From positions 726,501 to 790,500 of the forward strand of contig CAMPDV010000063.1 of NCBI GenBank assembly GCA_946699065.1: DNA of 64,000 bases, read 5' to 3'. The position numbers and the translations under genes were made by a program. The notes below the pieces were generated by a model. It saw only the letters and a program-made list of their open reading frames with translations. It ran no database searches and had not been told where the DNA came from. The stretch comes from Loxodes magnus. Its lineage: Eukaryota > Ciliophora > Karyorelictea > Loxodida > Loxodidae. Below, one piece after another: positions 12,145 through 64,000 of this stretch. Every line of letters starts with the position of its first letter. The first letter of the stretch is position 1.

Positions 12145-12407
12145 TACTTATTTTAAAAACTTAGTATTAGCAATCTTCAATACTTAATCAAATAGACATA
12201 CCACAAAAGCTAAAATTGTAAAAGATAGTCAGAATACTTGTCATATATAAACTTGAAGAGTAAGTAATTTGGTTAAAAGGCATGGAATCGTTGGCTTATA
12301 TATATTGTAGCTAATTGTTAGAAGATAGATTGAGCTATTAAAGTCTGCCTAGAAAATACATTATTTTGCAATTAAAGACAAAAGTGAATTAAAGTTTAGG
12401 TTTAATA

Positions 12408-22128: not shown

Positions 22129-22179
22129 TTATAAATAAACTAGAAATTGAAATTTTCTAGTAAAAACAAGGGAAACAGA
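22129..22179. promoter_or_regulatory. 51-bp divergent intergenic spacer
   Basis: Only 51 bp lie between the start codons of the CWC21/SRRM2 homologue (minus) and the next plus-strand gene. Any shared promoter and both leaders must be very compact. No motif stands out apart from AT-richness. Confidence 0.45.
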
Positions 22180-24542: not shown

Positions 24543-25504
24543 ATGTAACTTAACTTCTTGCTTAGTAACATTTTGCACCTTAATAGACTCATTTGAATAT
24601 ATAGTCCAAGTTTTAGAATTTGCCTTATCTTGTAAAAGGATTAGAAGGTAAGAAACTTGTTGATATTGAAATCCTTGTAGTACTCTTGATTTACTATCTA
24701 TACCATATTAACTCTTTTAAGTAACTAGATGATGATAGGTGTAAAAGTATAAAACTAACAGTTTTTAAAAGTAATAAAGAAGCGAAAGGGTTTTAACCTT
24801 ATATTTCTTAGTGTTCAACATCATAAAGGTAAGATATTAACATTTTTATATCGCTTACATAAATAGATTTATTACTAGTCAATGTATAGATTTCATGCTC
24901 CTTTAACATCTTCTTAATCGCAACTAACTATAATATCTGTCTTAGTTGATATAGTATCAGAGAGTATTAGGAGATGCTTATGAAGGTACTAAAGTATGAA
25001 TTCATTCTTAGTATCATAAAAATAGCTAATTAGTCATTCTCATTAACTATGTAAGTTATTTATGGTAGCCAGTGTAGTTATATTCTGTCTGATAATCTAC
25101 CTTTAATACCTTTTTTTAAGATTGAATCGTTTCAACTCTTAAATAAGATGAGATAAGATATAGAAATAAAAGTGAGACAGGAAATAAGGAAAATATAAAA
25201 AAAGCTACTAAAATTGAGCCTTTAATAGTAGATTCAATTAAGATAACTAAAATAAATAAGATTAAATACTGAAAGTACTAGCACTAGGTATCAACTGACA
25301 TCTGAAAAAGTATTTTATATCAGATGTATGTTTCAATAAATGTGTCATTTCTTGGCATTTAAAATAAGACCGATAAAATAAAAATGTTTGCCACTAGATT
25401 GGATATAAAGTCACAATTGTGAAGATGAAAATGTTAAGAGTAATTAATAATTTCTTTAATTTAGCTATCAGAGTTTATTTTCTTAGACTCAGATGACGAA
25501 CTGA
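24543..25504 (+). CDS. Hypothetical protein, about 300 aa
   Basis: One plus frame stays protein-like from about 24,580 (SKFQNLPYLVKGLEGKKLVD) through EMLMKVLKYEFILSIIKIAN and a basic coil (KMRQDIEIKVRQEIRKIQKK) to TGA 25502-25504. No family recognised. The start is not resolved: no ATG lies at the beginning of this frame and an upstream intron is likely. Divergent from the Rab gene and convergent with the VIT/VWA gene, whose stop lies 65 bp away. Confidence 0.45.
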
Positions 25505-25569
25505 GGTTCAAAGTATATTAATTTCAAAGGAGTTTAAATAACTCATACGTATTCATTTACACAAATATA

Positions 25570-28376: not shown

Positions 28377-28576
28377 AATGGCTTTTGATCCTAATAACTA
28401 AGAAATGATTTATAACATTATGCCTCTTTATTTGTTTTATTGCTAGTATTACGTGTATTTAATTAAGTCTTTTAACAAAAACCATTGTATTACTTTTTTA
28501 ATCTCTAAGCATATTAAAATAGATAGGACTTAGAGTCTAAGTTGCTTTCATACTGCGGTTTTAAATCAATTGCTAA

Positions 28577-29296
28577 ATGTCTAGGTTTGATAGTTAGTTT
28601 TACGAAGATATATTTGAGCAGCTTTTTCTGAATATAGATAGATTGTAATATTGCACATTAACAGGAAGCTTATTAAAAGAAAGTCTATTATCAGATGAAA
28701 AAGGTATAAGCTCTTAACTCTAAGCTTTCATAAAGTAATCCTTGTTTATGTTTTGATGAATGGAGAACAGAAATCATTTTTAGGAGACTGTAATGTACTT
28801 TCTATCTTTAAGAAAAGCTTTTTATTGAAATGGCTTAATATATGTAAATCTCTATATCTTTTTTGAAAAAGATACATTATAAGGTAAGAAACCAGGCAAT
28901 GGAATATTGGAAAAAAAGCTCAAGCTAACCAATTTAAACTAATATTATTACTCATTTTGTATTCATATGAAACATCAATTAACCTTTTTATCACTTTTGT
29001 TATAAGCCAGATCACTGATATTTTAGAGAGCTTTGACCTTTTTAAGCTTTTAGGTGATAAACAATTATAAGTAAGAGAAGCTAAGACAATGGTATAAATC
29101 TAAACCTCTTCTAGGTGCTTTTTGAAAGTCTATTTTTACATAATTTGATTTAACTCAGTTGTGATATAATCTTACAGATCAAGCTTATAGATAGACTACG
29201 AAGTAAAAAGCATTAAGATAATTTTTTTCATATATATAGCACTTTAGTACTTCTATTTCGTATTTATCACTGGGGGATAAACTATTGTACTAATGA
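28577..29296 (+). CDS. Hypothetical protein, 239 aa
   Basis: Intronless frame from ATG 28577 (MSRFDSQFYEDIFEQLFLNI) to TGA 29294-29296, both in frame. Contains DRLQYCTLTGSLLKESLLSD, a hydrophobic stretch with Trp pairs, HMKHQLTFLSLLLQARSLIF, and a basic end. It has five internal TGA codons, more than most genes here, so the middle could hold an intron or the protein could end at TGA 28754-28756. Divergent from the VIT/VWA gene and convergent with the coiled-coil gene. Confidence 0.5.
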
Positions 29297-37469: not shown

Positions 37470-39160
37470 AGCTTAAATAAATAACCTTTTCCTATCTTAA
37501 CTTGATAATGAAGAAAGATTCTTAAAATCTGAAATTAAATACTCAGTTTTACTTAGAAAAATTGGCATCAAGTTTTTAAATTATTCTTAATAGCACAAAG
37601 ATAACTTAAATTTTTAGCAGGAATAAATAAATTTATACTAATTAAGTATTAAATCAAAGCTATCGCAAACTGCGATAATATTTAGAAAAATATTCAGGAA
37701 TTTTCTTTTACAATAAGAGCTTCAAATATATTTACTATCTACAAAATCACTAAGGAGTAGATGGTAATTAGTTCTAAACATACTAACTAAATTTATGGTG
37801 ATTATGTTCTATAAAGTAATTTTTAAGTTTTTTGATATAAAGAAAAAGTTTAAAGATTGAATGTTAAACAGTGGAGCAAAGGGCTGGAGATGAAAAATTC
37901 CATTCTTAATCTTAAATTTTGGAAAAATCAGAAAAAGCTTTCTCAAAAAATAAAAATTAATCTCTTATATAATTCTTAATGAAATGAAACTATTTAATAA
38001 GCAACTTCATTCTACTAAATTATAAACTCAAGGTCTGAAAAAAGAAAAATTATAGAATATTGAATTCAACCTAATAAAAATCTAATAAAGTTATATTTAA
38101 CTAATTTGACAGTCTTTATAATAAAGCATATCAAAATTGCGTCTCAGAAATACCTTATTTAAAAAAGTTTAGATAAAAAATAAAGATTGTCACGTGTCAA
38201 AAGTGTAGAAAATCTGAGGATGAAATTTTGATTTATAGTCTAGATGATAAAAAATAATAAGAGAAAGAATATTTGAGGGAAATTAAGAAAAAAGGAACGG
38301 ATTCAAAAAATAAAAGAATATAAAAGCATAGAAAATAAAATAAAACAAAATAAAAAAATGAAGAGTGCTAATATTTAAAAATTTAACGAATAACATAAGA
38401 AAAGAGCGAAAAAAATGGTAGAAAGAAGCTTAAATATCTTTTGCGAATGTAAGAATTTAGACTAGTAATAAAAATAAAAACTTATATAGTAACCAGAAAA
38501 GCTTAAGCTAAGAAATTAAAATATTAAATAAAAAAAATAAAAATAAAAAAATAGAAGAGTATTTAAAAAAGAACCAGGATTTTACTAAGTAAATAAAAAG
38601 TAAAAAGATGTCAATATAAAGAAATCTATTAACTAAATTACATTATAATTAAAATTAAAATTAGTTATCAATAATTCACAAAAAATTATAATACAATTTT
38701 AGAAGAAAAATAATTAAATAAAGTATTTTAGTAGAAATTTATAAAAAGAAAAATAAGAAAAGATAAAATTTTAATTTGAAAGATATACTTAATTGTTAGA
38801 TTTGCTTAGATAAAATAAATGAATAAAATACGAAGATGATCAATAAAAATTCATTAAATACTTTTAAACTAACAATAAAAACTAAAATAGTTATATGGTG
38901 AATATTAGAAAAAGTAATAAACAAATATATCGAATTATATTTAACTAAAGCTAATTATAATACTATTTACACTAAGAGTTTGAGGCTTAGCAACCTATAG
39001 CAATTCAATATTATAAATAGCGATGATAAGAAAAAATTATTTATCTTAAGCTACTATAAATAAAAGACTGATAAGAGCGAGATTTTAATTACATAATTAA
39101 GACTCGAGAGGTTTCTAGTTGGATCTAAGATATTGCAGTTAGCATATCTAGATGGTTGGC
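37470..39160 (+). pseudogene. Degenerate fragment of the Gln-rich AIG1-like family (copy A)
   Basis: Three blocks align in order with the intact copy at 41-45 kb: 37,480-37,600 (LDNEERFLKSEIKYSVLL against LDNKDTSLQAEKETISVF), 37,870-38,230 (AYQN, PYL and VISVG-type blocks) and 38,750-39,060 (KYEDDQQKFIKYF against KYKDDQQKQSKYLS). Between them the sequence is shortened and scrambled, with frame changes, and no start codon equivalent is seen. A decayed paralogue. Confidence 0.65.
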
Positions 39161-40846: not shown

Positions 40847-41065
40847 AAATTAAACAAAGTTAAAGGATAAGGATAAGAGTTTAATTTAATTATTTAAACT
40901 TCTAGTTTACTTATAAATTATATAATAATTATAGTTTATACAGTAAATTATTATCTTAGAAACTTTAATGACTTTTATATTTAAAAGCGAAATCAATTAT
41001 AATTTAAAATGAGTCATATGCCCTGTGAATTTTATTGAAATAGTAGAAACCAAATCTTGAAATTA

Positions 41066-44000
41066 ATGAGTAATCATAATGCTTTAAGTATTATCATCAA
41101 ATGTCACACCCTAAAAGATTTATAATCTGTTGAACAGTCTCTTTAAAAGAATCCTCCTCAAGAAAACTGTCAAGTTTAAACCTTGTTCCAAGAGTTATTT
41201 AGAATCAATGATCAAAAAATATTCTCTAGAATCTTATAGCTTTTTTTCGAAAGTTTCAACTTCTAGGATGATAATCTTAATAAGGAACTAGAATAAAAGG
41301 TTTAAATATTTTTGTAGGATCAACTAAGCTAAGTAAGCAAGAAATAAGAAGGGTCTAACAGTAGTGATGAACAAAAGCAAAGCGGATTAAAAAACTAATA
41401 ATGATAAAGAAACTTTATCTGTCAGAAGCAAATAGAAGTAAAAATAGACGAATTCTTAATGTCCTAACTTGATAATAAAGATACTTCCTTATAAGCTGAA
41501 AAGGAAACAATTTCTGTTTTTATTTTAGGAAAGTAAGGATGTAAGTTTTTATAAGAATTCCTAAGTGATAAAAAATGAACTAAATGCTCCTAAAATGAAC
41601 AAGTAAATGTATACTAGTGAAATAAATACTAAATAATTGATATCAATAACATAAAGCAAATCTAGAAATATATACAGAAAATATCTATCTAAAATTAGAA
41701 ACTCAAGTTCCTTTACTGTCTACAAAGCCACTAAGTGAAAGAAGATACATAACTTACTATGCTTATTAAGACTTATGGTGAATAGATTCTAGAAAGTACT
41801 CTTTTTGTTTTATTTGATACTGAAGAAGAAAGTTTGAAGAATGTATCTAAAGAATTAAAAGAAATGACTGAAGATTAAAATTCCAACCTTAACCTACTAT
41901 CTTGGAATAATGAGAAATAACATTCTTAAAACTAGAATATAATAGCTTAAATAATTCTTAGGGAAATGAAGTCTTATAATAAACTTCATTCTACTAACTT
42001 ATAAACTCTAAGTAAAACAGAAGAATCATAAGAAAATAAAACTAATATAAAAACTAAAAGAGTTATAGTTTAATAGCTTGAGAGTCTTTATAATAAAGCT
42101 TATCAAAACTATATAGTAAAAATACCTTTTGAAGAATTAGGATTTACAAATATTAAATTAGTTCGTGTCATAAGTGTAGGCAGTCTATGGATAGAGTTTT
42201 ACTTATCGGCTTAGGAGATAAAAAGCAATGATTAAATATGACTAAAAATAGAAATGTACAAAAATATAGAATAAACTGCTTTAGTATATTAAACATAAAG
42301 GAAATAAAAGAAGGTAAATAGTGAATAAATGATATAATATAAGCATTATAAAGACTTAAGTAACGAATCTACTTATATTCGTATTTACTAAGAATAAAAA
42401 TCATAAAACTCCTAAAGTTTATTTCCTCTAAAGTAAGTAATAGAAACTAAAAGATCTTAAGAAAATATAGTAAGTAGTAGTCAGCTAGAAAGTTTACTAT
42501 ACTAAATAATGAGATTTGGATTAAACTTAATAAAATAGAATTAGTTTGTTAGCTTAAGTTTAGACTCTATTTTAGTAAATGAAGAAATGAATAAAGTAAA
42601 GTTTTATTAGCAACCAATTTAAATGAAACTACTATAAGAAAATCATATTTTAATATTAGAAAATAACTTAAACAATTATCAATACTTTCCTTTAGAAACT
42701 TTAGAACAAATTATATCTAATCAAGCATTTTATGACCAAAAAATCTAAGAATAGTAACTCACTAAGCTAGTTTAAAACTTAATACACTAAGAAGAACAAA
42801 ACTATTATGAAATTAAGAACTAAAAATGATAAAGAGCTGAAGAATAATAAAAATAGGAAAATAAAGATTATTAGTACTTAGATAGTTTATTTTAAAAATA
42901 CTAAGAATAGAACAATTAAAAATTAAGTTTTAGAAAGCTAGTTGAAACATTCATTGCTTAATGTAAATATTTAGATTAGCAACAAAAGCAAGAACTTTAA
43001 TAACAGTTATAAGAACTCGAATTTAGTATTAAAATTTCTTAAACGTAAGAACAAATAATTTAGAAAAATCTAAAATAAGTGAAACAATAACAAGCTTAAT
43101 AAAGTTAAAAGAAAAAATGTATTTCAATATACAAAAAATTTGAAACTACTTAAAATAATATAATAAATGATATTAGTATCTAATAAAGCATAAACAACAA
43201 TGATAATTTCATAAAAGAGTAAGATTTAATAGAAACTTTTTAGTAAGTATAAGAAAAAGAAAATTAAGAAGATTAAGAAAATTAAGAAAATTAAGAAGAT
43301 TAAGAAAATTAAGAAAAGATAAAATCTCTATTCGAAAGATTTACACAATCATAAAACTAATACAAACAAAATATTTCTATTAAATACAAAGATGATCAAT
43401 AAAAATAGTCTAAATACCTGTCCTAACACATTATTCTTTAAACTAAAACACTTAAAAATTACTATGATAAATATCAGAAAAGTAATAACAAAAAACTTAT
43501 AAAGGGAATCGTTTAATTCATATTTAACTAAAACAACTTCTAAAACTATTTAAACTAACAATTTAACTAACTCATAGCCAATAACACCTTTACTCTATAA
43601 ACTACTTAGGTAACAGAAGAATCATTTATCTTAAGCTATAAATGCAGACTCTATAACTACTTCAAGTAACAAGCCAGAGATTTCTAACTCAACACTTTCT
43701 AACTATCAGCTCTTGCTATCTACTTAGAAAGAAAAGGTTTATAAGAGTACATTGATAACTACGCTCTTGTGATTCCTTTTAGTTTCTTACTAATTTTATA
43801 GTTGTTTAGCAATAGAAACTTTGAGACTTATTAGATATACTAGGAAATAGCAAATAATGGAGGATTTAGTTTACTGTTTAACTGGTATATCTATAGTATG
43901 ATAGAACATAAATAAGCTATTTAAATAAGTTCTTACCAAATAAACTAGAAATATAAGCAACTAATCTCCTTAAGTAGACACTTCTAATCTAATCACTAAC

Positions 44001-45064
44001 TACTTAACCTTAATACTGCTATTCAAATATCTAAATAACTTCTGATAGACTAATCTGATTCACTTGATTTCAATATGAAAGTAAAGATGCAAAACATTGA
44101 TAATGACTATATCTATCAGATTATTAGTAAACCTTAAATTTAAGAAATTATATAAGCAGTTTAGAGAGGAAATAAAATAGCTTTCGTTAATAGCAAAAGA
44201 TAAGACTTTACTACTTATTGAACTAATGTAAACCTATTCGATAGATCAGTTTTACTCTCTAAATAAGATGAGATTGTAGCTAAGTAGTTAGTTAAATAAC
44301 TTCTAAATATGGTTAACTGTGGATTAATTCCTATTACCTTACTAAAGAAACAAAGAATTTACTTTCCATTCGAAGAAAATTCATCAGAAGAGAAGCAAAA
44401 CTAAAAGTTAGACTATTGGTAGAATAATCATTAGAATGATGTGTTATGTATAGATGTGAAAGAACTTTAGGAGTTATAGATGTTATACAATAACCTAAAG
44501 AAGACATTTTAGTAAAAGAAGTCAGCTATTTAGACTCTTTCGTATAATAAAGTTTTAATGCTTTCTTCTGAAAACATAATTCAAGAAAATGGTTATGTAA
44601 GTTATTTTTATTTATAGAAATCAAGTATAGAATCTGATTCAAATTAAGACAGTAAAGAAAGTCCTTTATTGGAATAGAGAGGTTAATAGTACAATTAGGA
44701 AGATATAAACAAGGAAATGTATAAAGGTCTTGCGGATTAGTTAGGCTTTCTTATTTCAAATGAGAAGTTATAATAATAGCCTTCAGCAAGTAGCTAATAA
44801 GTTTTTGAGAGCTAGAACTAAGAGAATGAATAGAAGGTGATTTAAAATGGGAATGAGAACTAGGAATAAGTCATATCTAAATAGATAAGTTGATCTAGTT
44901 AAAATTATTAGGCTCTTTAAGAAGATTCAAACGTTATGATGGGGAAGATAATAAGCGAACGTTTAGAAAATTTAAAAGAGTTCTAATACGATCATATAAA
45001 TAATATGTAAGATTTTAACTTTCTCCGTGGTTTTTAGAAAGGACCAAACAAGGAATTAAAATGA
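41066..45064 (+). CDS. Gln-rich protein with AIG1/GIMAP-like GTPase-fold domain, 1,332 aa (copy B)
   Basis: Single intronless frame from ATG 41066 (MSNHNALSIIIKCHTLKDLQ) to TGA 45062-45064. Trp is mostly TGA. Residues about 145-260 resemble an AIG1-type (TRAFAC) GTPase: a beta strand and loop VFILGKQGCKFLQEF in P-loop position, YQWNKYQIIDINNI in switch position, and LTMLIKTYGEQILESTLFVL in the place of the family's FGEEVLKYTIVLF. The P-loop lacks GxxGxGKS/T, so GTP binding is unlikely. The rest is Gln/Asn-rich helical sequence, a low-complexity ENQEDQENQE run (43.26-43.32 kb), a conserved globular part (NNGGFSLLFNWYIYSMIEHK, VNCGLIPITLLKKQRIYFPF) and a Ser/Gln tail. I do not know a described family with this whole layout. 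A near-identical copy lies 14.3 kb downstream. Confidence 0.72.
41232..44890 (+). repeat. Near-identical 3.6-kb block, first copy (partner 55541-59170)
   Basis: Matches 55541-59170 almost base for base. The offset is 14,309 bp at the left end and 14,282 at the right, and the 27-bp difference comes from indels that keep the reading frame. Both edges are abrupt: the first 55 codons and the last 60 codons of the two genes are clearly diverged. One internal patch (42,967-43,190) is also diverged. Confidence 0.9.
43259..43318 (+). repeat. Short in-frame tandem repeat (ENQED type)
   Basis: Alternating GAAAATTAA / GAAGATTAA units encode ENQ/EDQ runs in copy B. Copy D has the same array shortened by 27 bp (nine codons) at 57,568-57,600. 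Length change in multiples of three is typical of slippage under frame constraint. Confidence 0.8.
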
Positions 45065-47059
45065 TTTTTTCAAATTTAAAATTACATAATATTATATATA
45101 TTATTTTTATAAAGTAAAAAAATAAATATTTAGTAAGTAACTAATTCCTTCATTATTTTTATTTTTAACTAAGTCTCATGCAAGAAGATATAGTTATAAG
45201 AATTATAATAAAATTTGTACTATATAAAGAATATGATTTAGTTCATAAACAAGGATAAAAAATATTTTTTTTACTCTAAAAGATATTTTATGATATTGAA
45301 ATATTATATTATAAATGCAAAAATCAATCATTTGACTTTAAGATAAAATGTCTCTTTTATATATAGTGTAATAATTTAAATGACTTACAGCTAAATTTAA
45401 TTTTATAAAACTTTAACCTTAAAAATGATAAAAATTAATAGTAAAAATTAAATTACAATTGGATCTTAAATTATACAGTAAAAGGTTATCTTCTTTTATT
45501 AGTGCTAAGCAAATAAAAATTTTGACATATGCTAATTAAATCATCAGTCACCTTTTTAAATTTATTAGATTTATTAAGAAATTTAATCTTAACTATTACA
45601 CTTTTAAATTTAATAAAGTTTACCTTCTCATTCTATAACTGGACATAGTTTGCTTAATATCTTAAAATGAAATTAATTTTTGGTGGCTAAATTGAGTATG
45701 CTTCATTTGATAATAAAGTCAGAAATAAAGTTTAAGTTTGCTAAGAATGGTAAAAGCTAATTAGAGCTAATATTTTTCAGAAGCTTAATTTTTTAAATGC
45801 ATCTATTTTCTGAGTTTTTTTCTTTTATTCATATAAGCTAAATCAATAACATTATCCTTTAATTAGATTTTTTTAATCTAAGACTTTCATAAATTTGAAG
45901 AGACTGAAATAATAATTTTACCTAAGGTAAAAATTTACTCACAAAATCAAAAAGAAGTATCTTGCAAATAGATAATAAAATTAAACTTTAAAATGAGTAT
46001 AAATTAGCAAGGAGGTATAAAAGATTGCACAAATAGGGCAATAACTTAAATTAATGGTACCATTATAATATACATTAAAGAATAGAAAACCTATTTAATT
46101 ATATAAAATGAACAAAATATTATTTATAAGTATCATCCTAGATTCTTTTGCAGATTCAGTGAGGTAAGGATTTGTTTTGGTTTAACTTAATATGAAATTA
46201 TTATATAGACTTTATTTTAACTATCATCTATTAAAGTTAAAAATAATAATCATATAAAACTATAAGAAACAAATAAGAACTCTATTGTCTCTTATTAAGT
46301 GAAGCCACTTTATTAGGTTAAGCTGCAAGCTTATAAGCTACTTATAATTTTTAAGTAAATTAATTATTATGTTAAAAGCTCTACTATTAATAAAAGCATA
46401 TTCTATAACTAAAATTCTTGCTTTATCATATGATTTATTGTAAGGTTTTTCCTTTGGAGGTTATTTTTGTTTTTTTTAATTTAAGAATCATTTGCAATCA
46501 AAAGTAATAATTTTTCTAGTTCTCAGTTTATAAAAAAGGTAAACATTTCATTATAAAAACATTTTTTGTCTCTTTATTTATTTTTTTGTTATATGTAGCA
46601 CTATTTTTCAAATAAATGTTTAGATAGAAATTTTCATGAGATAAGTGTAAAACTAAAACTTTCTGTTGATTAAAATATAATAATTAGATAAAATTTTTAA
46701 AAAGAAACTGAGATAAATGAAAAGACTGATTCATGGTATCAAACAATTTGCCTAATTTTTATTTTAGAATAAAATATTACCTAGAAATATTAATTTTTTT
46801 ATTATCCTTACTTCTTAAGATCGAAAGATATTCCTATTTACAACTTTTCAGAGGTTATTAAAATAAGTAGAAAAAAGGTAAGCTTGGTAATAATCGACTT
46901 TGAAAGTTCAATTAAAGAAAATTAACTCTTATGTTACCATTTTTTATAATATTTTAGCATTGCTTAATTTAAGATAAATAGAAGCGAAAGTATCTTTATT
47001 TTGATTATATTTATATAGTTACATTTCTCTACTTAACTAACTGTATTACATAGAAAACG
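45065..47059. other. AT-rich intergenic / 3' region, no gene supported
   Basis: About 2 kb of very AT-rich sequence between the convergent copy B and the minus-strand gene. It aligns in order, with much divergence, to 59,400-61,150 (for example the stretches at 45,280-45,330 and 59,510-59,560, and at 46,030-46,100 and 60,250-60,310). So it is part of the duplicated unit. No coding frame stands out; the extreme 3' part of the minus-strand gene may reach into it. Confidence 0.5.
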
Positions 47060-49950
47060 TAAATTCAATGCTTTCTCCAGAAATAAATATTTAATACTAT
47101 TTAACTGGTTATAGATATGTTAAAATTGTAAAGCTTCAACCTCTTTGTTTATTTCTTTCGATTAGCATAAAAGCAATCAAATTATCTTTTCTTATCTCTG
47201 AATTTTTTAACTCGCTTATTCATTGAGATTTAATATCCATGATCTTTACAGTTGGCCTTTAAGTTATTTAATAGCTTACTTTTAAAAATAGAGTAAGTTT
47301 ATCAAATGATAAGATATAAAAGATACTCATAAGTTAATTTAATGAAGCATTATAATTTTCTTTTCTTCCTCCTTTTTGTTAATTTTGTTGTATCAAATAT
47401 CATTTCCATAAAATCTTTCATCATTAGATTTTCCAAAATTCACGAAATTTGAATATATATACTTTAGTTTCTTTAGTTACTTAACAGTATACTTTTTTAG
47501 AAAGTAAATGCTTTTATTTTCAAGTTGCTATTTTTTATTTATTATGCTTCTTTAGCTTCATTATTATGTTATCTATTTCTATTCTTTTCCTCATCGAGAT
47601 TGCCTTTCTCTCATTTTTTTTCTTAAATATTTTATGATAATATTTAACCTGGAAAACTTGGAGGACAAGTAAACTCTCACTATATTAATTAATCAGAATG
47701 ATCTGTTAATAGATGTAATGGGAATATTATCATATCATTTTCTTGAAACTGAAACCAACAAAGTTATAAATGAATAATCCATAGCGATAGATTTTAACCC
47801 TACAAAGATTATATAATTATTAAGTGAATTCTCTTCAAGATCTTGGCCTCAACTAATAACTTCTCCAACGTAAAAACCTAAAACTAGAATATTCGAAATT
47901 TCCCTCCTATTGTTCTTTCGATTTTTTACTTATACATTCATGGTTTTTATTTTGGTTCCCTAATCTAGCCAATTTTACTGAAGTTATGATGATTTTTTGA
48001 TTGTAATAGGAAGTTTATAATATCATAATCTACAAAGTCTTGAAGTTGCTACTTCTATATAATCTATTTTTAATTTCTCTATTTTGGCTATAAATACCTT
48101 ATTGCATATAATATTAAAGGATTTCTCATAAAAGTAAAGTTATTTTAGACTGTAGATAATGGTTGATCTAAAAAAGCATCTATAGATTAATAAAAAATCT
48201 TAAAAAAGGAAATGGAAAATTGATATAGCTGAAAGAATAAAGTAGATATGCTAAATTTATGAAGTTTAAGATTTGGAAAATAGATTAATAGTATAAAGGC
48301 TAAAAATAAAGCATTATATAGTTGGATTATTATACTTAAAAAATACTTTTATCATATCCTTAATCTGAAAGGTTTAAGCTTTGTTATTATATAGCAGATA
48401 CTATAATATTTACTTAGTAAGTATAATCGTAGTTGAATAATGCTCTTAGCTGATATATAATTAATATCTTAAAGGTTAACTAATGCAAATATAAAAAATT
48501 ATTAAGAAAATACATTAATTTTGCCAAGCTATCTTTATAAATTAAAATAATATAAAGATAGGAGTGTAAAAAGAGTTATGATCTTTCAGTTTAGATAAGA
48601 TTATTTATATGAAAATATTTAAAAGGTGATGTGACTTTTAGTGAAATAAGATTTTTAAATGTGGTAAGGTAAATAGAAATACCTAATAATCTATATAGAG
48701 TAATTTTAAAAATACATATAGAATTACATCTTATTTAGTAAAAACTCTTTAAAAAATAGTTAACTTTACTTTTATTTATTAGTGTAGATAAATTACACAT
48801 TATAGCTCTGGATAATCTTCATCTTTTAATATGTATAAAATGTATTCTTTTGCTATGTTAAGAACTATTAACTTTTATTGATTATGCAAAAAATATTATA
48901 TGTCCTCTATAAAACTTAAGAATAAATATCAGTCAAGTTTCTCTTTCTTTTTGATTTTTATCTAAAAAGATATTAATAAGAATAATACCTTGCTATAGGT
49001 TTTAAGAGTTAAGTTGTTTACTTTGTTAAGACTTCTTCCTAGTTCTTATTTTATGTCACTTTCTCAACTAAGATATTCTCTTTATTCTACTTCTTATAAA
49101 CCAGATATACTTTCGAAAGCTATTATTATAGCTTTTCAAATGAATTAAGAAAAGTTATTTATTCTCCAAGATAAAAGATATTTCTATTTCAAATCCTCCT
49201 AATTGTTATATTAACTTTTTATTCTCTTAAAGAACTTTTTTCGCTGTTTTCATTAAATCCTTGCTTTTATTTAGAAAAAGAGAGCTTTTTATTTTAATAT
49301 TATTTTGATTCCAATCTTTAGTATAAGTTTAATTTTGCAAACATTTTCCTTAGGACTTTTAATCTAAAAACTGACAATTTAGCATTCTTCGAAGCAATTA
49401 AGATTTTTTTTTCGTTTTAAGTGATTCATATATTTATTTATTTTATCTTGAGTTGAATATTTTCTATAAATATACCTCTTAATAATAAGGGGTATCTTTT
49501 ATATCTTATTATAAATTGATATTTCTCAGAAATAGCAAGATCAAAATTAATTTTTTGGAAAGATATTAAGCTTACTAGAGTAATATATTAGCTTTAATCT
49601 TTTTGTACCTATCATTTCATACAGTATTTTCTTCGTAATTTTCGTTTTTCTTAGCAATAATGATTACTATTTCGTTACTTAGTTTCAATCATCATGTAAT
49701 ATATACCGCTCTTTGACATATTACTCTATATCACTTCTATAGAAGATCGAATTTTCTTATATTCAGCATTCTTTTTCTCACCTTCCACATTTTCTTGATT
49801 GTCTTTAATAGACAAATATTCTTCTAATTCTAAATTAATCTCCTATCAAACTTAAAAGATGCATACAATTGATATTTTATTTTCATAGTAACCTAAATTA
49901 AAATAGATTTTGAAAGTTCTAATGTAGTCATTTATATTTATCACTTCCAT
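47060..49950 (-). CDS. Gln/Lys-rich protein of unknown function, first copy (E1), boundaries approximate
   Basis: A minus frame begins at ATG 49950 (MEVININDYIRTFKIYFNLG) and stays natural for over 900 nt: ELEEYLSIKDNQENVEGEKK, NAEYKKIRSSIEVIQSNMSK, SKQKQGFNENSEKSSLREQK, KKQNKENILVEKVTQNKNQE. Further blocks at 47.06-47.45 and 47.75-47.95 kb (TKRRKKRKLQCFIKLTYEYL; SKKSKEQQEGNFEYS) are similar at protein level to the second unit at 61.3-62.2 kb. That argues for real coding sequence. Small introns are likely; the C-terminal end is not placed. Convergent with copy B. No family recognised. Confidence 0.5.
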
Positions 49951-52079: not shown

Positions 52080-53180
52080 CTTAATAGAAGATAACTAGAA
52101 GAGAAAGAAGTTTTAGAAAACGTTTTATAGTACAAAGAGAAATTAATAGTCATATAGTTAGCATGAGGGTTTTAACTTTATTAGCAATCACCCACCTTTG
52201 TAATTTTAGAATAAGTTGAAAATCTCTTGAGAAGGAAATTAAGTAAGAGAATAATACAAGTAGAGCTCTATGATTATCATTGCTTGGACTTTGCAATAAA
52301 GAAGATTTTTACAAGTAATCTTAAAAATTTTTAAGATCTTCTTTATTTATAGAATGCTAAACTCAATTAAAGATAGGAAGAAAAATTTTTAGCTGATTTT
52401 AAAGAACTTGCTTAGCTAAGTTTAAGAAAGTTAAGAAATACAAAAAGAAAAATTTATTACTAAAAAGATAAAAGAAGCTTTAGTTGCCAATAGCAAATAT
52501 AATTCAAAATAAATGACTGCTTCTAATCTTAACTTGATAATGCAGATACTTTCTTATGATCTGAAATGGAGTAATTTCTGCTTTAGTTTTAGGAAATAAA
52601 GGAAATTTTCTGCAAGACTTCTTAACTAACAAAGTATGAATTAAAACTTTGTAATCTGAACAAGAAACGTATAATAGTTAAAAAAATACTAAATCATTGA
52701 TATCAATAACATAAAAAAATCTAGAAATATATACAGAAAATATCTATCTATAATTAGAAACTCAAGCTTCTTAATTATTGCAAAGCATCTAAGTAAAAGA
52801 AGAAAGTATGAAGAATGTATCTGAAGAAATAAAACAAATAACTGAAGAAGAAAAATTCCAATCTTAATATATCATCTTGGAATAATCAGAAAGAACATTC
52901 TCAAAATTATAATATAATATCCTAATAATTCTATATGAAATGAAGCCTTATACGAAACAACTTCAATCAACTAACTTATAAACTCAAAGACTAAAATAAA
53001 AGGAATAAAAAGAAAAATTCAGTCTAATAAGAAATAAAATAAAGCTATATTTTAATAGATTGATGATCTCTAAAGTAATACTTGCCAAACTAAATAAAAG
53101 TACCTTATGAAAAATTATATTTAAAAAATAAAAAATTAATTTGTATCATAAGTGTGGGAAATCTTTGATTAGAATTGCTA
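52080..53180 (+). pseudogene. Degenerate, internally deleted fragment of the Gln-rich AIG1-like family (copy C)
   Basis: The best block, 52,520-52,900, matches the GTPase-like part of copies B and D (QLDNADTFLQSEMEQ, KIQKYIQKIYLQLETQA). The segment carrying the conserved LIKTYGEQILESTL helix is missing: the sequence jumps from the SIQVK equivalent straight to EESMKNVSEEIKQITEE. Homology ends near 53,160. Frame changes are present. It occupies the position relative to copy D that copy A has relative to copy B. Confidence 0.7.
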
Positions 53181-55317: not shown

Positions 55318-58300
55318 ATGAATTAAATTGACTCTAAGTTTGCTTGGGAAAATAGGAGATAGATAAAACAGCTTATGGAGGAATATGACGCTACTTAAGT
55401 AGTTATCTTAAGCTTAAATCTTAAAGACTTGAAAAAAATTGAGAAGATTTTAGAGTAAGATGTAAAAGGAAATGCCAATGTGAATAAAAATTTATGGTTT
55501 AATTTGTTTGAAAGTAGTAATAAAGAAGATTTCACTAACATCTTATAGTTCTTTTTCGAAAGTTTCAACTTCTAGGATGATAATCTTAATAAGGAACTAG
55601 AATAAAAGGTTTAAATATTTTTGTAGGATCAACTAAGCTAAGTAAGCAAGAAATAAGAAGGGTCTAACAGTAGTGATGAACAAAAGCAAAGCGGATTAAA
55701 AAATTAATAATGATAAAGAAACTTTATCTGTCAGAAGCAAATAGAAGTAAAAATAGACGAATTCTTAATGTCCTAACTTGATAATAAAGATACTTCCTTA
55801 TAAGCTGAAAAGGAAACAATTTCTGTTTTTATTTTAGGAAAGTAAGGATGTAAGTTTTTATAAGAATTCCTAAGTGATAAAAAATGAACTAAATGCTCCT
55901 AAAATGAACAAGTAAATGTATACTAGTGAAATAAATACTAAATAATTGATATCAATAACATAAAGCAAATCTAGAAATATATACAGAAAATATCTATCTA
56001 AAATTAGAAACTCAAGTTCCTTTACTGTCTACAAAGCCACTAAGTGAAAGAAGATACATAACTTACTATGCTTATTAAGACTTATGGTGAATAGATTCTA
56101 GAAAGTACTCTTTTTGTTTTATTTGATACTGAAGAAGAAAGTTTGAAGAATGTATCTAAAGAATTAAAAGAAATGACTGAAGATTAAAATTCCAACCTTA
56201 ACCTACTATCTTGGAATAATGAGAAATAACATTCTTAAAACTAGAATATAATAGCTTAAATAATTCTTAGGGAAATGAAGTCTTATAATAAACTTCATTC
56301 TACTAACTTATAAACTCTAAGTAAAACAGAAGAATCATAAGAAAATAAAACTAATATAAAAACTAAAAGAGTTATAGTTTAATAGCTTGAGAGTCTTTAT
56401 AATAAAGCTTATCAAAACTATATAGTAAAAATACCTTTTGAAGAATTAGGATTTACAAATATTAAATTAGTTCGTGTCATAAGTGTAGGCAGTCTATGGA
56501 TAGAGTTTTACTTATCGGCTTAGGAGATAAAAAGCAATGATTAAATATGACTAAAAATAGAAATGTACAAAAATATAGAATAAACTGCTTTAGTATATTA
56601 AACATAAAGGAAATAAAAGAAGGTAAATAGTGAATAAATGATATAATATAAGCATTATAAAGACTTAAGTAACGAATCTACTTATATTCGTATTTACTAA
56701 GAATAAAAATCATAAAACTCCTAAAGTTTATTTCCTCTAAAGTAAGTAATAGAAACTAAAAGATCTTAAGAAAATATAGTAAGTAGTAGTCAGCTAGAAA
56801 GTTTACTATACTAAATAATGAGATTTGGATTAAACTTAATAAAATAGAATTAGTTTGTTAGCTTAAGTTTAGACTCTATTTTAGTAAATGAAGAAATGAA
56901 TAAAGTAAAGTTTTATTAGCAACCAATTTAAATGAAACTACTATAAGAAAATCATATTTTAATATTAGAAAATAACTTAAACAATTATCAATACTTTCCT
57001 TTAGAAACTTTAGAACAAATTATATCTAATCAAGCATTTTATGACCAAAAAATCTAAGAATAGTAACTCACTAAGCTAGTTTAAAACTTAATACACTAAG
57101 AAGAACAAAACTATTATGAAATTAAGAACTAAAAATGATAAAGAGCTGAAGAATAATAAAAATAGGAAAATAAAGATTATTAGTACTTAGATAGTTTATT
57201 TTAAAAATAGTAAGAATAGAACAATTAAAAATTAAGTTTTAGAAAGCTAGTTGAAACATTCATTGCTTAATGCAAATACTTAAGAAAATAAATGAGACAA
57301 GAACTTTTATAACTATTATAAGAACTCGAATTTAGTATAGAAAAATCTAGTTTGTAAGAAAAAATCAACCAGATAATCTCGTAAAATGACTAAAAGAAAA
57401 TAACTAATAAAATTAAAAAAAAGAATAAGATTTAAGTATTAAAAGCTATTTAAATTACTCAAAATAATTAAACCAATGATAATAACATCTAATAGAGAAT
57501 AAACAACAATGATAATTTCATAAAAGAGTAAGATTTAATAGAAACTTTTTAGTAAGTATAAGAAAAAGAAAATTAAGAAGATTAAGAAAATTAAGAAAAG
57601 ATAAAATCTCTATTCGAAAGATTTACACAATCATAAAACTAATACAAATAAAATGTTTCTATTAAATGCAAAGATGATCAATAAAAATAGTCTAAATACC
57701 TGTCCTAACACATTATTCTTTAAACTAAAACACTTAAAAATTACTATGATAAATATCAGAAAAGTAATAACAAAAAACTTATAAAGGGAATCGTTTAATT
57801 CATATTTAACTAAAACAACTTCTAAAACTATTTAAACTAACAATTTAACTAACTCATAGCCAATAACACCTTTACTCTATAAACTACTTAGGTAACAGAA
57901 GAATCATTTATCTTAAGCTATAAATGCAGACTCTATAACTACTTCAAGTAACAAGCCAGAGATTTCTAACTCAACACTTTCTAACTATCTACTCTTGCTA
58001 TCTACTTAGAAAGAAAAGGTTTATAAGAGTACATTGATAACTACGCTCTTGTGATTCCTTTTAGTTTCTTACTAATTTTATAGTTGTTTAGCAATAGAAA
58101 CTTTGAGACTTATTAGATATACTAGGAAATAGCAAATAATGGAGGATTTAGTTTACTGTTTAACTGGTATATCTATAGTATGATAGAACATAAATAAGCT
58201 ATTTAAATAAGTTCTTACCAAATAAACTAGAAATATAAGCAACTAATCTCCTTAAGTAGACACTTCTAATCTAATCACTAACTACTTAACCTTAATACTG

Positions 58301-59520
58301 CTATTCAAATATCTAAATAACTTCTGATAGACTAATCTGATTCACTTGATTTCAATATGAAAGTAAAGATGCAAAACATTGATAATGACTATATCTATCA
58401 GATTATTAGTAAACCTTAAATTTAAGAAATTATATAAGCAGTTTAGAGAGGAAATAAAATAGCTTTCGTTAATAGCGAAAGATAAGACTTTACTACTTAT
58501 TGAACTAATGTAAACCTATTCGATAGATCAGTTTTACTCTCTAAATAAGATGAGATTGTAGCTAAGTAGTTAGTTAAATAACTTCTAAATATGGTTAACT
58601 GTGGATTAATTCCTATTACCTTACTAAAGAAACAAAGAATTTACTTTCCATTCGAAGAAAATTCATCAGAAGAGAAGCAAAACTAAAAGTTAGACTATTG
58701 GTAGAATAATCATTAGAATGATGTGTTATGTATAGATGTGAAAGAACTTTAGGAGTTATAGATGTTATACAATAACCTAAAGAAGACATTTTAGTAAAAG
58801 AAGTCAGCTATTTAGACTCTTTCGTATAATAAAGTTTTAATGCTTTCTTCTGAAAACATAATTCAAGAAAATGTTTATGTAAGTTATTTTTATTTATAGA
58901 AATCAAGTATAGAATCTGATTCAAATTAAGACAGTAAAGAAAATCCTTTATTGGAATAGAGAGGTTAATAGTACAATTAAGAAGATATAAACAAGGAAAT
59001 GTATAAAGGTCTTTTAGATTAGTTAGGCTTTCTTATTTCAAATGAGAAGCTATAATAATAGACTTCAGCAAGTAGCTAATAAGTTTTTGAGAGCTAGAAC
59101 TAAGAGAATGAATAGAAGGTGATTTAAAATGGGAATGAGAACTAGGAATAAGTCATATCTAAATAATCAAGTTAATCTAATTAAATTAGTTAGATTTTTT
59201 AAGCAGAATTAAACATTATAATGGGGAAGAGGATATAAGGACACCTAAGAAATTTAAAATAATTCTACTTCGATTATAAGAGGAAAACGGAATGCTTTGA
59301 CATACTGCACATTTTTCAGTAAAGTTATAAGCGGTGGTAAGACAATTTTTAGTTAAAAAAATTTTTATTTAGAGAAATAAATAATTTTTTAATGTTTTTA
59401 TTTAAGCTAAGAAACACATATAAAGATATAGATAATAAAAATTATAATAAGGTTTTATTTAACAAACCTAATTTATATAAAGATTTAAATTTTCTCAATA
59501 CTCTTTAAGTTTCTTTATGA
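55318..59520 (+). CDS. Gln-rich protein with AIG1/GIMAP-like GTPase-fold domain, about 1,400 aa (copy D)
   Basis: ATG 55318 (MNQIDSKFAWENRRQIKQLM); the frame is open to TGA 59518-59520. From codon 75 it is nearly identical to copy B, including the degenerate P-loop (GKQGCKF), the YGEQILESTL helix and the Gln/Asn-rich centre. Its own N-terminus (VVILSLNLKDLKKIEKILEQ) is a distant relative of the copy B start (LSIIIKCHTLKDLQSVEQSL). A patch at 57,276-57,500 is diverged. The copy B stop position is not kept: after a diverged end (IIMGKRIQGHLRNLKQFYFD) the frame runs about 70 codons further into AT-rich sequence. The true C-terminus is therefore uncertain, or the stop was lost. Confidence 0.68.
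55541..59170 (+). repeat. Near-identical 3.6-kb block, second copy (partner 41232-44890)
   Basis: See the partner block. Only scattered single-base differences are visible outside the diverged patch at 57,276-57,500 and the 27-bp shorter ENQED array. Direct orientation. Confidence 0.9.
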
Positions 59521-61149
59521 TATCGAAATATTATATTTAGAGATACGAAAATCAATCATACGACCTTCAGTTAAGATGTTTTCTTTCATAAAAAGCATGA
59601 TAATGAAAATTTTCTGCATTTAAATTTCACATTTCTTTTATTAGTTTATCTCAAAGAATGGAGTGATTAAAGATTCAAAGCAAAAAAAATTTAAACTATA
59701 TCTTAAATTAATAAATATATGATGACAAAATTCCTTTTTTTTGCTAATATAGCAAAAAATTTAAGCATAAGTTAATGAAATAATCTTTTACATTAAATCC
59801 AAATTATTATTTCTATAAGAAATTTTATATAAACTCCTTCAATGCTAAGATTTATATAAGTTTCATACTTCTCTTTTATAATGATCCACAGTATACTTAA
59901 TTTCATACAATGAAATTTATTTTTGATTGTTAAATTGTCTATGCTTTTTTTGAAAATAAAAACACAAATTTAGTTTGAATTTTTTATAAGTATAGTAAAA
60001 GTTCTGTCGAGTAGTAATTTATTTAAGTCACTTAGTTTATTATAAAGGTAACTTAGTTTACTTAATTTTTTATCTTATATTTATAATTAAACTAATAACA
60101 TTATCCTTTAGTTAAATTTTATTTTTATCTAAGACTTTCATAGGCTGATAAAAATATAAAAAAGGTTATGTTGCACTTAGAAAAAAAGTATGTCTTGCAT
60201 ATATAATAAAGTATAAACATTTAAAAAGGAGATATAAACGATAGCTTTAAAATAGGGTAATAACTTAAATTAATAATATCATTATAATATACATTAAAGA
60301 ATAGAAAAACAATCAACAACTTATTATATAAATTGAATAAAAGATAAACATAAATATTAAACTAGATTCATTTGCGAAATTAATGAGTTAAGGATTTGTT
60401 TTGGTTTAATTTAATATTAAAAAACAAAGAAGATATTTAAACTATCATCTATTAAAATTAAAAAAATAGTAACCTTTTATAATTGTAACTCTTTTGCCTT
60501 TTTTTTTAAAAGAAGACTCTTTATTAATTTTAATCTTTAGGATTATAAGATGATTGCAATATTTTTTAAGTGTTGCTATTAAATTTAAAAGTTTAATTTT
60601 TATATTATTAATGAATCAAATATATTAAGGTCATTTTTACAGACCAAAGTCTTTTAATCAGATAGTATATTAGAAGATTTTTTCTATGGAGATTATTTGA
60701 TTTTTCATAATATTTGGGATATTTATAATTATTAGTACTAATGTTTCTAGTTTTTAGTTTATCTAAACAGGGGAAAACTTATAATAAGAAATACTAAATC
60801 GCTTTGCTTTAAGTTTTGTTCCATATCTTATATTGTTTTGCAAACTGATTATAAATTAAGATCTTTAAGAGATTAGCAAAAGATAAAATTTTAATTAATT
60901 TGAATATAATCAAAAGATGATAATTTAAAAAAGAAACTGGAGCCAATAAAAGTTCTAACTTCATGAAATCTAGCAATTTGATAAAATTAGCCTCTGTAGA
61001 TAAATAACTTTGGAAAGTTTTTTAATTTTCATATTAGATTTCCTAATTAAGTTGATAAATAATCCTATTTAAATCATTTTAGAGGATTATAAAATTAGTA
61101 GAAAAAAACTAAATATAGTAAAGATAGACTTTGATTGCCTGAAATCTAA
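59521..61149. other. AT-rich intergenic / 3' region, duplicate of 45.1-47.0 kb
   Basis: Aligns in order with the region downstream of copy B, but with far lower identity than the coding block, many indels and no evident coding frame. Confidence 0.5.
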
Positions 61150-64000
61150 AAAAAGAAGACAACTATTTCAATACTTATATTTATAATATTTAACATTTAC
61201 CTTATGTTATAATAATAAAAGCAAAGCTTTTACTTTAAATTGTTTTAATATTTCTATCTTTCTATGTTTTATAAAGGATCCATCAACAAAGACGCAAATT
61301 CAGTTATTTCTTTGAAAATAAATCTTTAATATTGCTTGAGTTTCTAAGAACCATAGAAGATATTTAAACTAAACTTTCTTGCTTTGTTCTTTCAATCACT
61401 TTAAGCAAAAGGATTTATATTTTCTTGTCTCAAAAAAATATTACTCGCTTGTTTACCTTAGAGTTAATTATCCATATATTTTCAATTTTTAAACTATTTA
61501 ATGGCTTGCTTTTCCCAAGACGAAAAAAATAGATTATGCTAAATAGATAAAATATATTAAAGATTTTAATAAGTTAATTTAATTTAGCACTGGAATTTAA
61601 TTTTCTCTTTCTTTTTTTGTTTTTTATTGCTGTATCATGGTTTCATCTCTTTCTAATCTCTTATTATAAGGTTTTCAAATTAATCTCTATTATATATTTT
61701 AATGCTTTTTGGCTGTGCTAATAATCAAAATTTAAGGATATATTAATTTTATACCTTCTGAGAGCAAAGTATTTGTTTTCTAAGTTATTACTTTTTATTA
61801 GATGAGTTTCTTAAATTGATTGCTATTTAGTTAATGTTGTGCTTTTCTTAATAAGATTGATTTTTTCCTCCTAAATTACTTCAATTATTTTATGATAATT
61901 ATTTTTGGAATGTTTTAGGATTACTTAGCTCTCGACATATTTTCTAATCTGGATAAACTGCTAATGAACTGAATAGGGAATTATCACGAATCACTTCTTC
62001 AATTAAAGACCACCAAGAGTAAAAAATGTTTTTTCATAATAATAGCCTTCAGATATCCACAAAACCCTAATTTTATCACGATGCTTTTCTTCAAGCATTT
62101 GGAACAAATTAGTGTTCTCTCTATAATATTAAGAAAAAAATCAGAATAATCAAAATTTTGTCCCGTCATTTGATTTTTTACTTCAATATTTATGACTTGC
62201 ACCTTAGTTCATTATTTTCTACCCAATTTTGCTAATTTAAAATGCTTTTACTTTCTAATAAGAGGAAGTTACTAAAATCCCTATCTACTAAACTCTAAAG
62301 TTTATCCTTTCTATTGATTCAATTTTAATTTCTCTTTTTAAAGTATAAAACTTATTATATATAATAAAGATATATAACTTTAAAAAGCGGAACTTTTTAA
62401 ACTGCAGGTGAAGCAGATACTTTATATGTTTATTTGGAAACAAAAATCTATAAAAGAAATGTATTGAGCTAAAATGTAGGAATTATACAAGATGCTAATC
62501 TAATTAAAATAGAAAAGTTAATAAAGCTACAAATAAAATTTAAAATACTATATAGAAAAAGTATACTAAAGTATTAAGATAAAATCATTCAAGTTAAATA
62601 AAATTAAAAGAGCTCTGCTTTTATAAAATAACCATATTAAGAAAGAATATAGCAGAAATGGGTAAGGCTAATAAAAAGTAATTAATTTGCAGGTCTTAAT
62701 TTGTATTAATATGAAAGTAAATCTAGTTTAATGATAATTACAAATCTTAGATAAAAAGGAAAAATCTTTTTATATTTTGGTATTAATAATAACTAAACAA
62801 TTTTTTAAATCTAAGTAGTCTACAAGATCTAAAAATAATAAAAGTATGATGCAAAAGATAGAATTTTCTAATTTTTTTATAGAAAGTATAATTGGCTTAA
62901 TGAAATAACTAAATATAAAGCTTCTCTTAATTTTAGAATTACACTAAAAAATGTTTACTAAGTTTGCTTTATTAGCTTTAATGAAATAATATTGACTTTT
63001 AATAGTAAATAAATATTACTTTAGTATTTTACGAAATCATTTTTAAAAGGTTTATTTATGCTAAAGATTTAAATTTTGTCTATTATTTAAACTCCTCTTT
63101 AGTTCTTGGTTTTTATAATCCTACAAAGTTTAATTTCTTAAAGATTTTAATAGAAAAACTCTATATTTAATAAACTTTCATGGATTCCATTATTAGTTTC
63201 CTTATTAATTTTAAAACTAAGTTAATCTTTATCGAGTACAGCTATTTCTTGTTTAAGTAATTTAACTTTTATTTATTCTGAATAGTTTACTATTTTATAA
63301 TAAATTACCTCTTATATTAAATGAAGTATCTTATATATCCTATTACTATTGATATTTTTCAGATAGATAACAAGATATTGGAGGTAAGTTTGAAAAGATA
63401 TTTAGTGTATTAAACTATCATAATTATTTTAATCTTTATATAAATCACTTCATAACAAATATCCTTCATACTTTTCGCTTTTTCTTATTTCCTTTACATT
63501 ATTACTATTTCAATATTTAACTTCAAATATAATGTAATAAAATCCAGTTCTTAGATATATAACTCTATTTTTATTTTAGTTTTGGCTAGATATTATAGTT
63601 CTAAGGTAAAGTTAATTTTTCAACTTGTTGCTATAAGATTTTTCTTTAATCTGTTCTAATCTTTTTTAGCACTTATTTAGTTCTTTTTTACTAATAGCAT
63701 AACTCTATGTTATTTAAGATTTTTATCTAGTTATATATTTAATAATTCATTTGGAGTTAACTAAAACTATTTTTTCCCTTTATCAAAAACAAAAATTCTA
63801 GTAATAAGCTTCTTTGCTTTGATAGAGTTGAATTTCTAAAATTACTCCTAGATATATTTGCTTAATATTCCAAAGAGAAGTTCATATCAATCTATATTTT
63901 CTCCAACTGAAATAACAATTTATTTCTAAGGATATTTCATGTTAAGTTTAATATAAATAAAGCTTAATAAATACTAAGCAATAATCACTCTTTTGTAAGA
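61150..64000 (-). CDS. Gln/Lys-rich protein of unknown function, second copy (E2), 5' end outside window
   Basis: Minus-strand blocks match E1 at protein level: FENLIIRDQKEMKP and QKKKEKIKFQCQIKLTY (about 61.5-61.7 kb) against LENLMMKDFMEM and KRRKKRKLQCFIKLTY; and MQVINIEVKNQMTGQNFDYS (62.15-62.20 kb) against the EGNFEYS region. By the 14.2-kb offset the start would lie near 64.15 kb, beyond the window edge. The frame structure between 62.3 and 64.0 kb is not resolved, and DNA similarity to E1 is low there. Confidence 0.4.

Follow-up and report, generated by a model that had tools for sequence, protein, structure and literature searches.

GTPase-like domains with degraded G motifs are known from the pseudo-GTPases p190RhoGAP (pG1 and pG2), a large multidomain protein, and CENP-M (PMC5593906). 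Family expansion has been reported for the AIG families (PMC7053062). In ciliates, the young leucine-rich repeat (LRR) genes of Tetrahymena form a lineage-specific amplified family that diversifies by recombination, the shuffled units being 90-bp repeat exons (PMC6564038). Homogenisation of copies within one genome is described as concerted evolution of repeated sequences (PMC7804092). Here we consider a gene of the ciliate Loxodes magnus, copy 1, and its relatives. Copy 1 lies in a 64-kb stretch of the genome (C63:726501-790500; below, the window is this whole stretch) and encodes, in order, a variable N-terminal part, a putative AIG1-like pseudo-GTPase domain, a candidate kinase-like domain, a Gln/Glu-rich linker, a conserved C-terminal domain and a variable tail. 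The explanation that we consider probable is a Loxodes family of large, likely non-catalytic proteins, whose cores are held identical by gene conversion and whose ends diverge.

Like p190RhoGAP and CENP-M, these proteins have a putative GTPase-like domain with degraded motifs; however, those domains belong to another GTPase family, the fold of the Loxodes domain is unproven, and the Loxodes family is multigene and mosaic. With the AIG1/GIMAP GTPases (PF04548) the family shares expansion and a weak profile similarity at the IFG motif and the following strand, but it has neither the P-loop (10 of 10 members) nor a Pfam match above the cut-off, and its domain is followed in the same protein by a kinase-like and an unnamed one. 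Whereas repeat exons are shuffled in the Tetrahymena LRR genes (PMC6564038), in Loxodes it is the ends that vary, around homogenised cores. Finally, copies within one genome are homogenised as in concerted evolution of repeated sequences, but the boundaries of homogenisation fall inside the reading frame, and the linker and both ends are spared.

Mosaic structure of the gene array

The genome-wide searches covered 705,730,643 bases in 7,843 contigs of one assembly. Six near-full-length copies were found within 54 kb at C63:767-821 kb, five on the plus strand and one on the minus strand. Two of them, copy 1 and copy 2 (the second long copy, first read as an open frame at 55375-59325), are inside the window; the others are L002, L003 (inverted), L005 and L006. 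Core 1, which spans most of both enzyme-like domains and has about 290 synonymous sites, shows no differences over 1,505 bp (41396-42900) in all six copies, the inverted one included, and core 2 (43387-44591) is 99.5-99.9% identical. The N-terminal parts are 52-99% identical between copies, the linkers 64-100% and the tails 45-91%, with synonymous divergence of 0.53-2.1 among the three N-terminal versions. The longest invariant run takes 1,505 of 3,988 ungapped columns, as against at most 114 in 2,000 permutations.

The variable parts group the copies differently. By the N-terminus, copy 1, L002 and L003 stand together, as do L005 and L006, and copy 2 is separate. By the linker, copy 1 and L005 are opposed to the other four copies. 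By the tail, the groups are copies 1 and 2 (at 78%), L002 with L003 and L006, and L005 alone. The points at which versions pass into the common core are shared: L005 and L006 meet copy 1 at 41393, copy 2 meets it at 41243. Thus identity tracts within diverged copies and conflicting groupings, the two marks of gene conversion, both occur in this assembly. Upstream of the genes, pairs of copies align at 31-56%, with the exception of L005 and L006, which are 99% identical from approximately 40834.

One possibility is that the array arose by very recent tandem duplication with no conversion. The clustered arrangement would agree with it, but the downstream flank in the 14.3-kb unit is 66.5% identical and the gene ends are 45-78% identical between versions, against 100% in core 1, which contradicts a single date of duplication and makes this explanation extremely unlikely. 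Since one date cannot account for these values, an old tandem duplication with recent conversion of the cores would explain them. The old duplication would have founded the array; recent conversion among copies, in both orientations, would keep the cores identical; and the N-terminus, linker and tail would escape it and diverge.

Another explanation is that a repeated gene was misassembled or wrongly polished, so that the cores only seem identical and the true copies differ throughout. Indeed, such repeats are hard to assemble, a single assembly was compared, and this assembly was polished with Racon (PMC11441545). On the other hand, the polishing mappings were reported to be filtered with samtools -q 20 (PMC11441545), and core 2 retains differences of 0.1-0.5% among copies, so differences have not been wiped out wholesale. 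Besides, block versions change at sharp, shared positions (41393 in both L005 and L006), and the gene-limited tract of another pair, L016 and L020, is at 97%, not 100%. An artefact therefore seems unlikely.

This tract belongs to one of two pairs of relatives outside the array in which the shared sequence extends little or not at all beyond the gene. In L016 and L020, 1,169 bp over the C-terminal domain are 97.3% identical, the kinase-like domains are 27.7% identical at the protein level, and a common 0.5-kb repeat occurs at unrelated places in the flanks. L015 and L018 share 2,569 bp at 93.3%.

If the mosaic holds in reads, gene conversion acts block by block within one reading frame. The k-mer heterozygosity of L. 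magnus is reported as 0.6% (PMC11441545), at which about nine differences would be expected over core 1; with none, the cores resemble each other more than two alleles do at an average locus. According to the same source, Loxodes does not extensively edit its genome; it is in such a ciliate that a family named by none of the libraries searched fills a gene array.

Coding potential and extent of the family

The macronuclear assembly of L. magnus is reported to be 706-Mbp long, with translation by table 27, where UGA is Trp or stop, and introns of 19.3 bp on average (PMC11441545). Translated by this karyorelict code, 41066-45064 (plus strand, TGA stop at 45062-45064) yields a 1,332-aa protein with the GKQGCKF loop and Gln-rich stretches, exactly as described (at about 1,330 aa) in an earlier reading of the window from its letters alone, the sequence-only reading. 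The start assumed there has to be revised: an in-frame ATG is present at 41009, 57 nt upstream, and, since the ensuing peptide is matched in copy 2, L002 and L003, this is probably the start, giving a predicted gene at 41009-45064 with 1,351 aa. Gln makes up 15.4% of the protein, with the highest share, 25.4%, in the linker. TAA or TAG account for 164 of the 208 Gln codons, in line with the sequence-only reading, and the karyorelict code also fits the exchange of TGA and TGG at conserved Trp columns of 14 members (six TGA and seven TGG at residue 940, five and nine at residue 1052). The prediction that standard gene finders miss the gene holds for generic tools; however, the published annotation used a predictor that treats UGA as ambiguous (PMC11441545).

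The coding score of copy 1 is the highest in the window, the score being trained in part on copy 1 and its relatives. The ratio of nonsynonymous to synonymous divergence (Ka/Ks) is 0.25-0.87 when differing versions of the array's diverged blocks are compared and 0.19-0.96 over eight pairs of relatives (0.34 across 859 codons in L008/L019; 0.96, with few changes, in L024/L025). The reading frame is supported because Ka/Ks is below 1 and TGA and TGG are exchanged at conserved Trp columns; by these sequence criteria copy 1 is a real protein-coding gene. Purifying selection is indicated by Ka/Ks below 1 in the diverged parts of the sister copies. Two points weigh against the explanation proposed here. 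Firstly, constraint may be weak in places, as L024/L025 reach 0.96 and the tails of copies 1 and 2 reach 0.87; coding constraint appears present and uneven between parts of the family. Secondly, L005 and L006 have no in-frame ATG at the matching start or within 100 codons upstream, and may be damaged.

A six-frame search of the genome, which scored 35 of 534 candidates and whose counts are therefore lower bounds, gave 38 rows: the six array copies, at least 29 diverged places elsewhere and three extra pieces of the latter. Identities in this search are understated (87% in the self-match), probably as stop codons of table 11 score no match. Searching the DNA with the sequence of the C-terminal domain, with 40 of 91 candidates scored, gave at least 44 matches. 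The sequence-only reading had noted amplification into two intact and two decayed copies. All four are present in the window, together with an inverted tail relic (49011-49254), but the family is larger than that; the array, its mosaic, the kinase-like domain and the absence of a P-loop from the relatives as well had not been seen.

Many loci (L008/L011/L012/L014, L019/L021 and L023-L028) sit in larger repeats that are near-identical across most of the fetched 5.7-7.9 kb, a length limited by the fetched stretch, and lie on several contigs. Because of these groups, gene-limited exchange is not the sole mode of spread of the family. They also agree with a different explanation, namely that a mobile element carries the gene copies, as cargo or as its own open reading frame, and that the pattern comes from transposition, as do the dozens of copies on many contigs and the repeat-rich genome (PMC11441545). 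However, identity in the array starts and stops within the coding frame, block by block, rather than at common ends of an element; Ka/Ks is below 1; and 16 members gave no match to a transposase, reverse transcriptase or integrase in a scan that excluded the flanks. We regard transposition as an improbable source of the pattern, and gene conversion as the better account of the array.

Enzyme-like and C-terminal domains

Three blocks are conserved in an alignment of 16 members: residues ~130-330, ~325-650 and ~770-1190, numbered from the start at 41066. The first can be aligned in ten members. When the profile of these ten was compared with one of ten Loxodes AIG1-model proteins, it scored 23.7, and 60 column shuffles reached no more than 16.0; the ten are a chosen subset, a first profile that included members without the region having scored 18.7, and the score of 23.7 rests on some 20-50 columns, the IFG-motif helix and the strand after it. 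Four wrong-target controls stayed within their own shuffles: 9.4 for this domain against kinases, 14.5 and 12.9 for the kinase-like and C-terminal domains against AIG1, and 13.0 for the C-terminal domain against kinases.

Other comparisons gave weak or mixed results. When single AIG1-model sequences were used, six of ten scored above their own 20 shuffles, one by only 0.2, and four did not. The Pfam AIG1 model (PF04548), which ranked fifth of 17 weak hits, gave an E-value of 0.056 in one of the ten domain sequences and was not above the Pfam cut-off in the copy 1 protein (P0001) or in the 16 members. The model itself is unspecific, as it passes its own cut-off in seven of 14 prokaryote control genomes. 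The AIG1/GIMAP-like core proposed by the sequence-only reading is thus weakly supported, by the profile score and not by Pfam or by four of the ten single sequences, and we hold with moderate belief that residues ~130-330 are AIG1-like.

Other identities were considered and rejected. The best match of the pseudo-GTPase profile in PDB is a bromodomain protein (E-value 0.091), too weak to name the domain. The second and third are ADP-ribosylation factor-like protein 3 (E-value 1.4), and with Pfam Arf at 0.0089 in one of ten sequences the Arf identity is also too weak. L043, a P-loop protein with GKQGVGKT that looks alike by eye, did not align above shuffles.

The P-loop motif GxxGxGK[ST] is absent from all ten members with the domain, as the sequence-only reading had it for copy 1, and the site itself differs among them. 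Since no member has the P-loop, the AIG1-like domain would be at most a pseudo-GTPase. One could suppose instead that the protein is an AIG1/GIMAP GTPase whose altered loop still allows an unusual mode of nucleotide binding, as the weak likeness to Loxodes AIG1-model proteins at the IFG motif and the next strand might suggest. However, the loop is variable, and among 18 fetched AIG1-model loci the standard motif occurs in 12; of the others, four have GYHGSAKST and in two the matched frame does not reach this site, and all six read DTPGF, which the copy 1 protein lacks. An unusual GTPase is therefore highly improbable, and a pseudo-GTPase is preferred. Resemblance to AIG1 alone implies no role in immunity. 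In the whole genome the AIG1 model has 53 matches, all above the cut-off, many with near-equal scores on C258, C539 and C466; loci L038-L041, which are of this kind, read GYHGSAKST at the P-loop.

The sequence-only reading placed Gln/Asn-rich helices after the AIG1-like core. The linker is indeed Gln-rich, but part of this region is a conserved domain, residues ~325-650, that may be kinase-like. Its conserved stretches follow an order which we take to be that of kinases: a Gly-rich loop, the invariant Lys, the helix before a catalytic-loop-like stretch, and a Pro-Glu motif. Gly372, Phe378-Tyr379, Lys394 and Pro542 are invariant among 12 members, and the stretch FT.QQLE.FIY.IL...L.L..QN....LT.DSILV.ED aligns with the helix and catalytic loop of a kinase encoded in the window (12459-13205). 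The family alignment scored 19.0 against this kinase (0 of 30 shuffles as high), and a trimmed profile 18.8 in local mode (0 of 60). With a profile built from eleven kinases, the local alignment runs collinearly through 170 columns, as compared with at most 58 in shuffles.

The relationship is unproven on this evidence, as several results speak against it. The score against the eleven-kinase profile was 13.8 (maximum of shuffles 18.5), or 13.1 for the trimmed profile, a value that 22 of 60 shuffles reached. Scores in global mode were within shuffles (28 of 60 as high for the eleven kinases, 52 of 60 for the window kinase alone). The kinase-like profile matched nothing in PDB at E-values up to 10, and 12 members gave no match to Pfam Pkinase. 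As compared with pseudokinases, the domain has a similar order of motifs, by our naming, but lacks both HRD and DFG; LTSDSILV-like and FYQQP-like stretches take their place in the 16-member alignment. Near-identical members (L002, L003, L005, L006, W2, L011, L025 and L027) were left out of the kinase-like and C-terminal profiles, the trimmed kinase-like profile further omits L012, L018, L022 and L028, and L014, L021, L023 and L026 are in no profile.

In one relative, L022, the kinase-like domain contains an in-frame WD40 repeat unit (L022:2865-2975, C14:318864-318974). With 40 of 1027 candidates scored, a part of this unit, 82-85 bp, recurs with 95-96% identity in at least 39 further places on many contigs, and a second piece often lies some 123-126 bp away; near-identical WD40-coding repeats are thus amplified genome-wide. 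A first look at Pkinase in the genome gave 5,592 candidates.

Residues ~770-1190 (about 420 aa) are the best conserved part of the family. No relative of this C-terminal domain was found in Pfam, PDB, prokaryote genomes or viral contigs, and no relatives of the family were confirmed in the prokaryote genomes or viral contigs. In Pfam the copy 1 protein has no match, and the 16 members show just the WD40 repeat in one and weak hits; three proteins gave nothing above the cut-off in NCBIfam and nothing in PADLOC. The family thus remains undescribed, as the sequence-only reading suggested, by the Pfam, NCBIfam, PADLOC and PDB sequence searches. A literature search of titles and abstracts, with partial coverage, found no paper describing it, and the main text of the L. 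magnus genome paper does not mention gene families, gene conversion, GTPase, tandem duplication or WD40 (PMC11441545). AlphaFold2 models lend the domain assignments no support: the predicted local distance difference test (pLDDT) was 34.6 for residues 125-655 (six sequences in the alignment) and 32.1 for the C-terminal domain (three sequences), both uninterpretable.

Because neither catalytic site is intact, a non-catalytic regulator or scaffold is the likeliest function. In such a protein the enzyme-like domains could be binding or oligomerisation modules common to all copies, and the differing ends might direct the copies to different partners, places or targets. A more specific proposal, that a uniform signalling core of pseudo-GTPase and pseudokinase with mixed N-termini, linkers and tails forms a combinatorial recognition or regulatory set, for instance for self/non-self or mating specificity, is speculative and in our view unlikely. 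If expressed, the family would be a candidate for a diversifying system of recognition or regulation founded on inactive enzymes.

Features of the window and neighbouring genes

Table 1. Copy 1, its parts and related sequences in the window (positions in the window; domain names are predictions)
Feature	Position	Strand	Remarks
Gene copy 1 (probable extent)	41009..45064	+	1,351 aa, table 27
Variable N-terminal part	41009..41395	+	three versions, 52-99% DNA identity among copies
Core 1	41396..42900	+	1,505 bp, 100% identity in 6/6 copies
Putative AIG1-like pseudo-GTPase domain without P-loop	41453..42055	+	residues 130-330, counted from start 41066
Conserved, possibly kinase-like domain without HRD or DFG	42038..43015	+	residues 325-650
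Variable Gln/Glu-rich linker	42988..43386	+	two versions, 64-67% identity at 42988-43190; 18-bp repeat from ~43257
C-terminal conserved domain	43373..44635	+	most conserved part; searches gave no known relative
Core 2	43387..44591	+	99.5-99.9% identity among six copies
Variable tail	44642..45064	+	45-91% identity among copies from 44770 onward
Gene copy 2	55318..59520	+	same cores; N-terminus, linker and tail differ; end assumed at first in-frame TGA past the conserved part
Decayed copy, first piece	37495..38253	+	69% DNA identity to 41462-42224
Same decayed copy, further piece	38703..38981	+	68% identity to 43257-43564
Second decayed copy, two pieces	52459..53176	+	78% to 41394-41745, 76% to 41823-42198 (DNA)
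Inverted tail relic	49011..49254	-	68% to 44642-44891
Downstream flank, old tandem duplication	45115..47436	+	66.5% identity to 59354-61679, 2,433-column alignment
Partner of this flank	59354..61679	+	assumed end of copy 2 reaches into its first bases

The 18-bp coding repeat of the linker (Glu/Asn/Gln/Asp; 43257-43320) differs in copy number among the six array copies. A coding scan showed no clear reading frame in the two flanks.

The window kinase belongs to a gene on the minus strand (12201-13874), in which a weak match to a FYVE-type zinc finger, below the cut-off, lies N-terminal to the kinase; no relatives of this kinase were found in viral contigs. Further genes encode a protein with an RIH-associated domain, ryanodine/IP3 receptor-like (3-3635, plus strand), and a VIT plus VWA protein (25503-28700, minus strand). 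The frame at 20626-22149 (minus strand) has no Pfam match and a strong coding score, 114. Sharp AT-skew and GC-skew are seen at 20-22 kb of the window.

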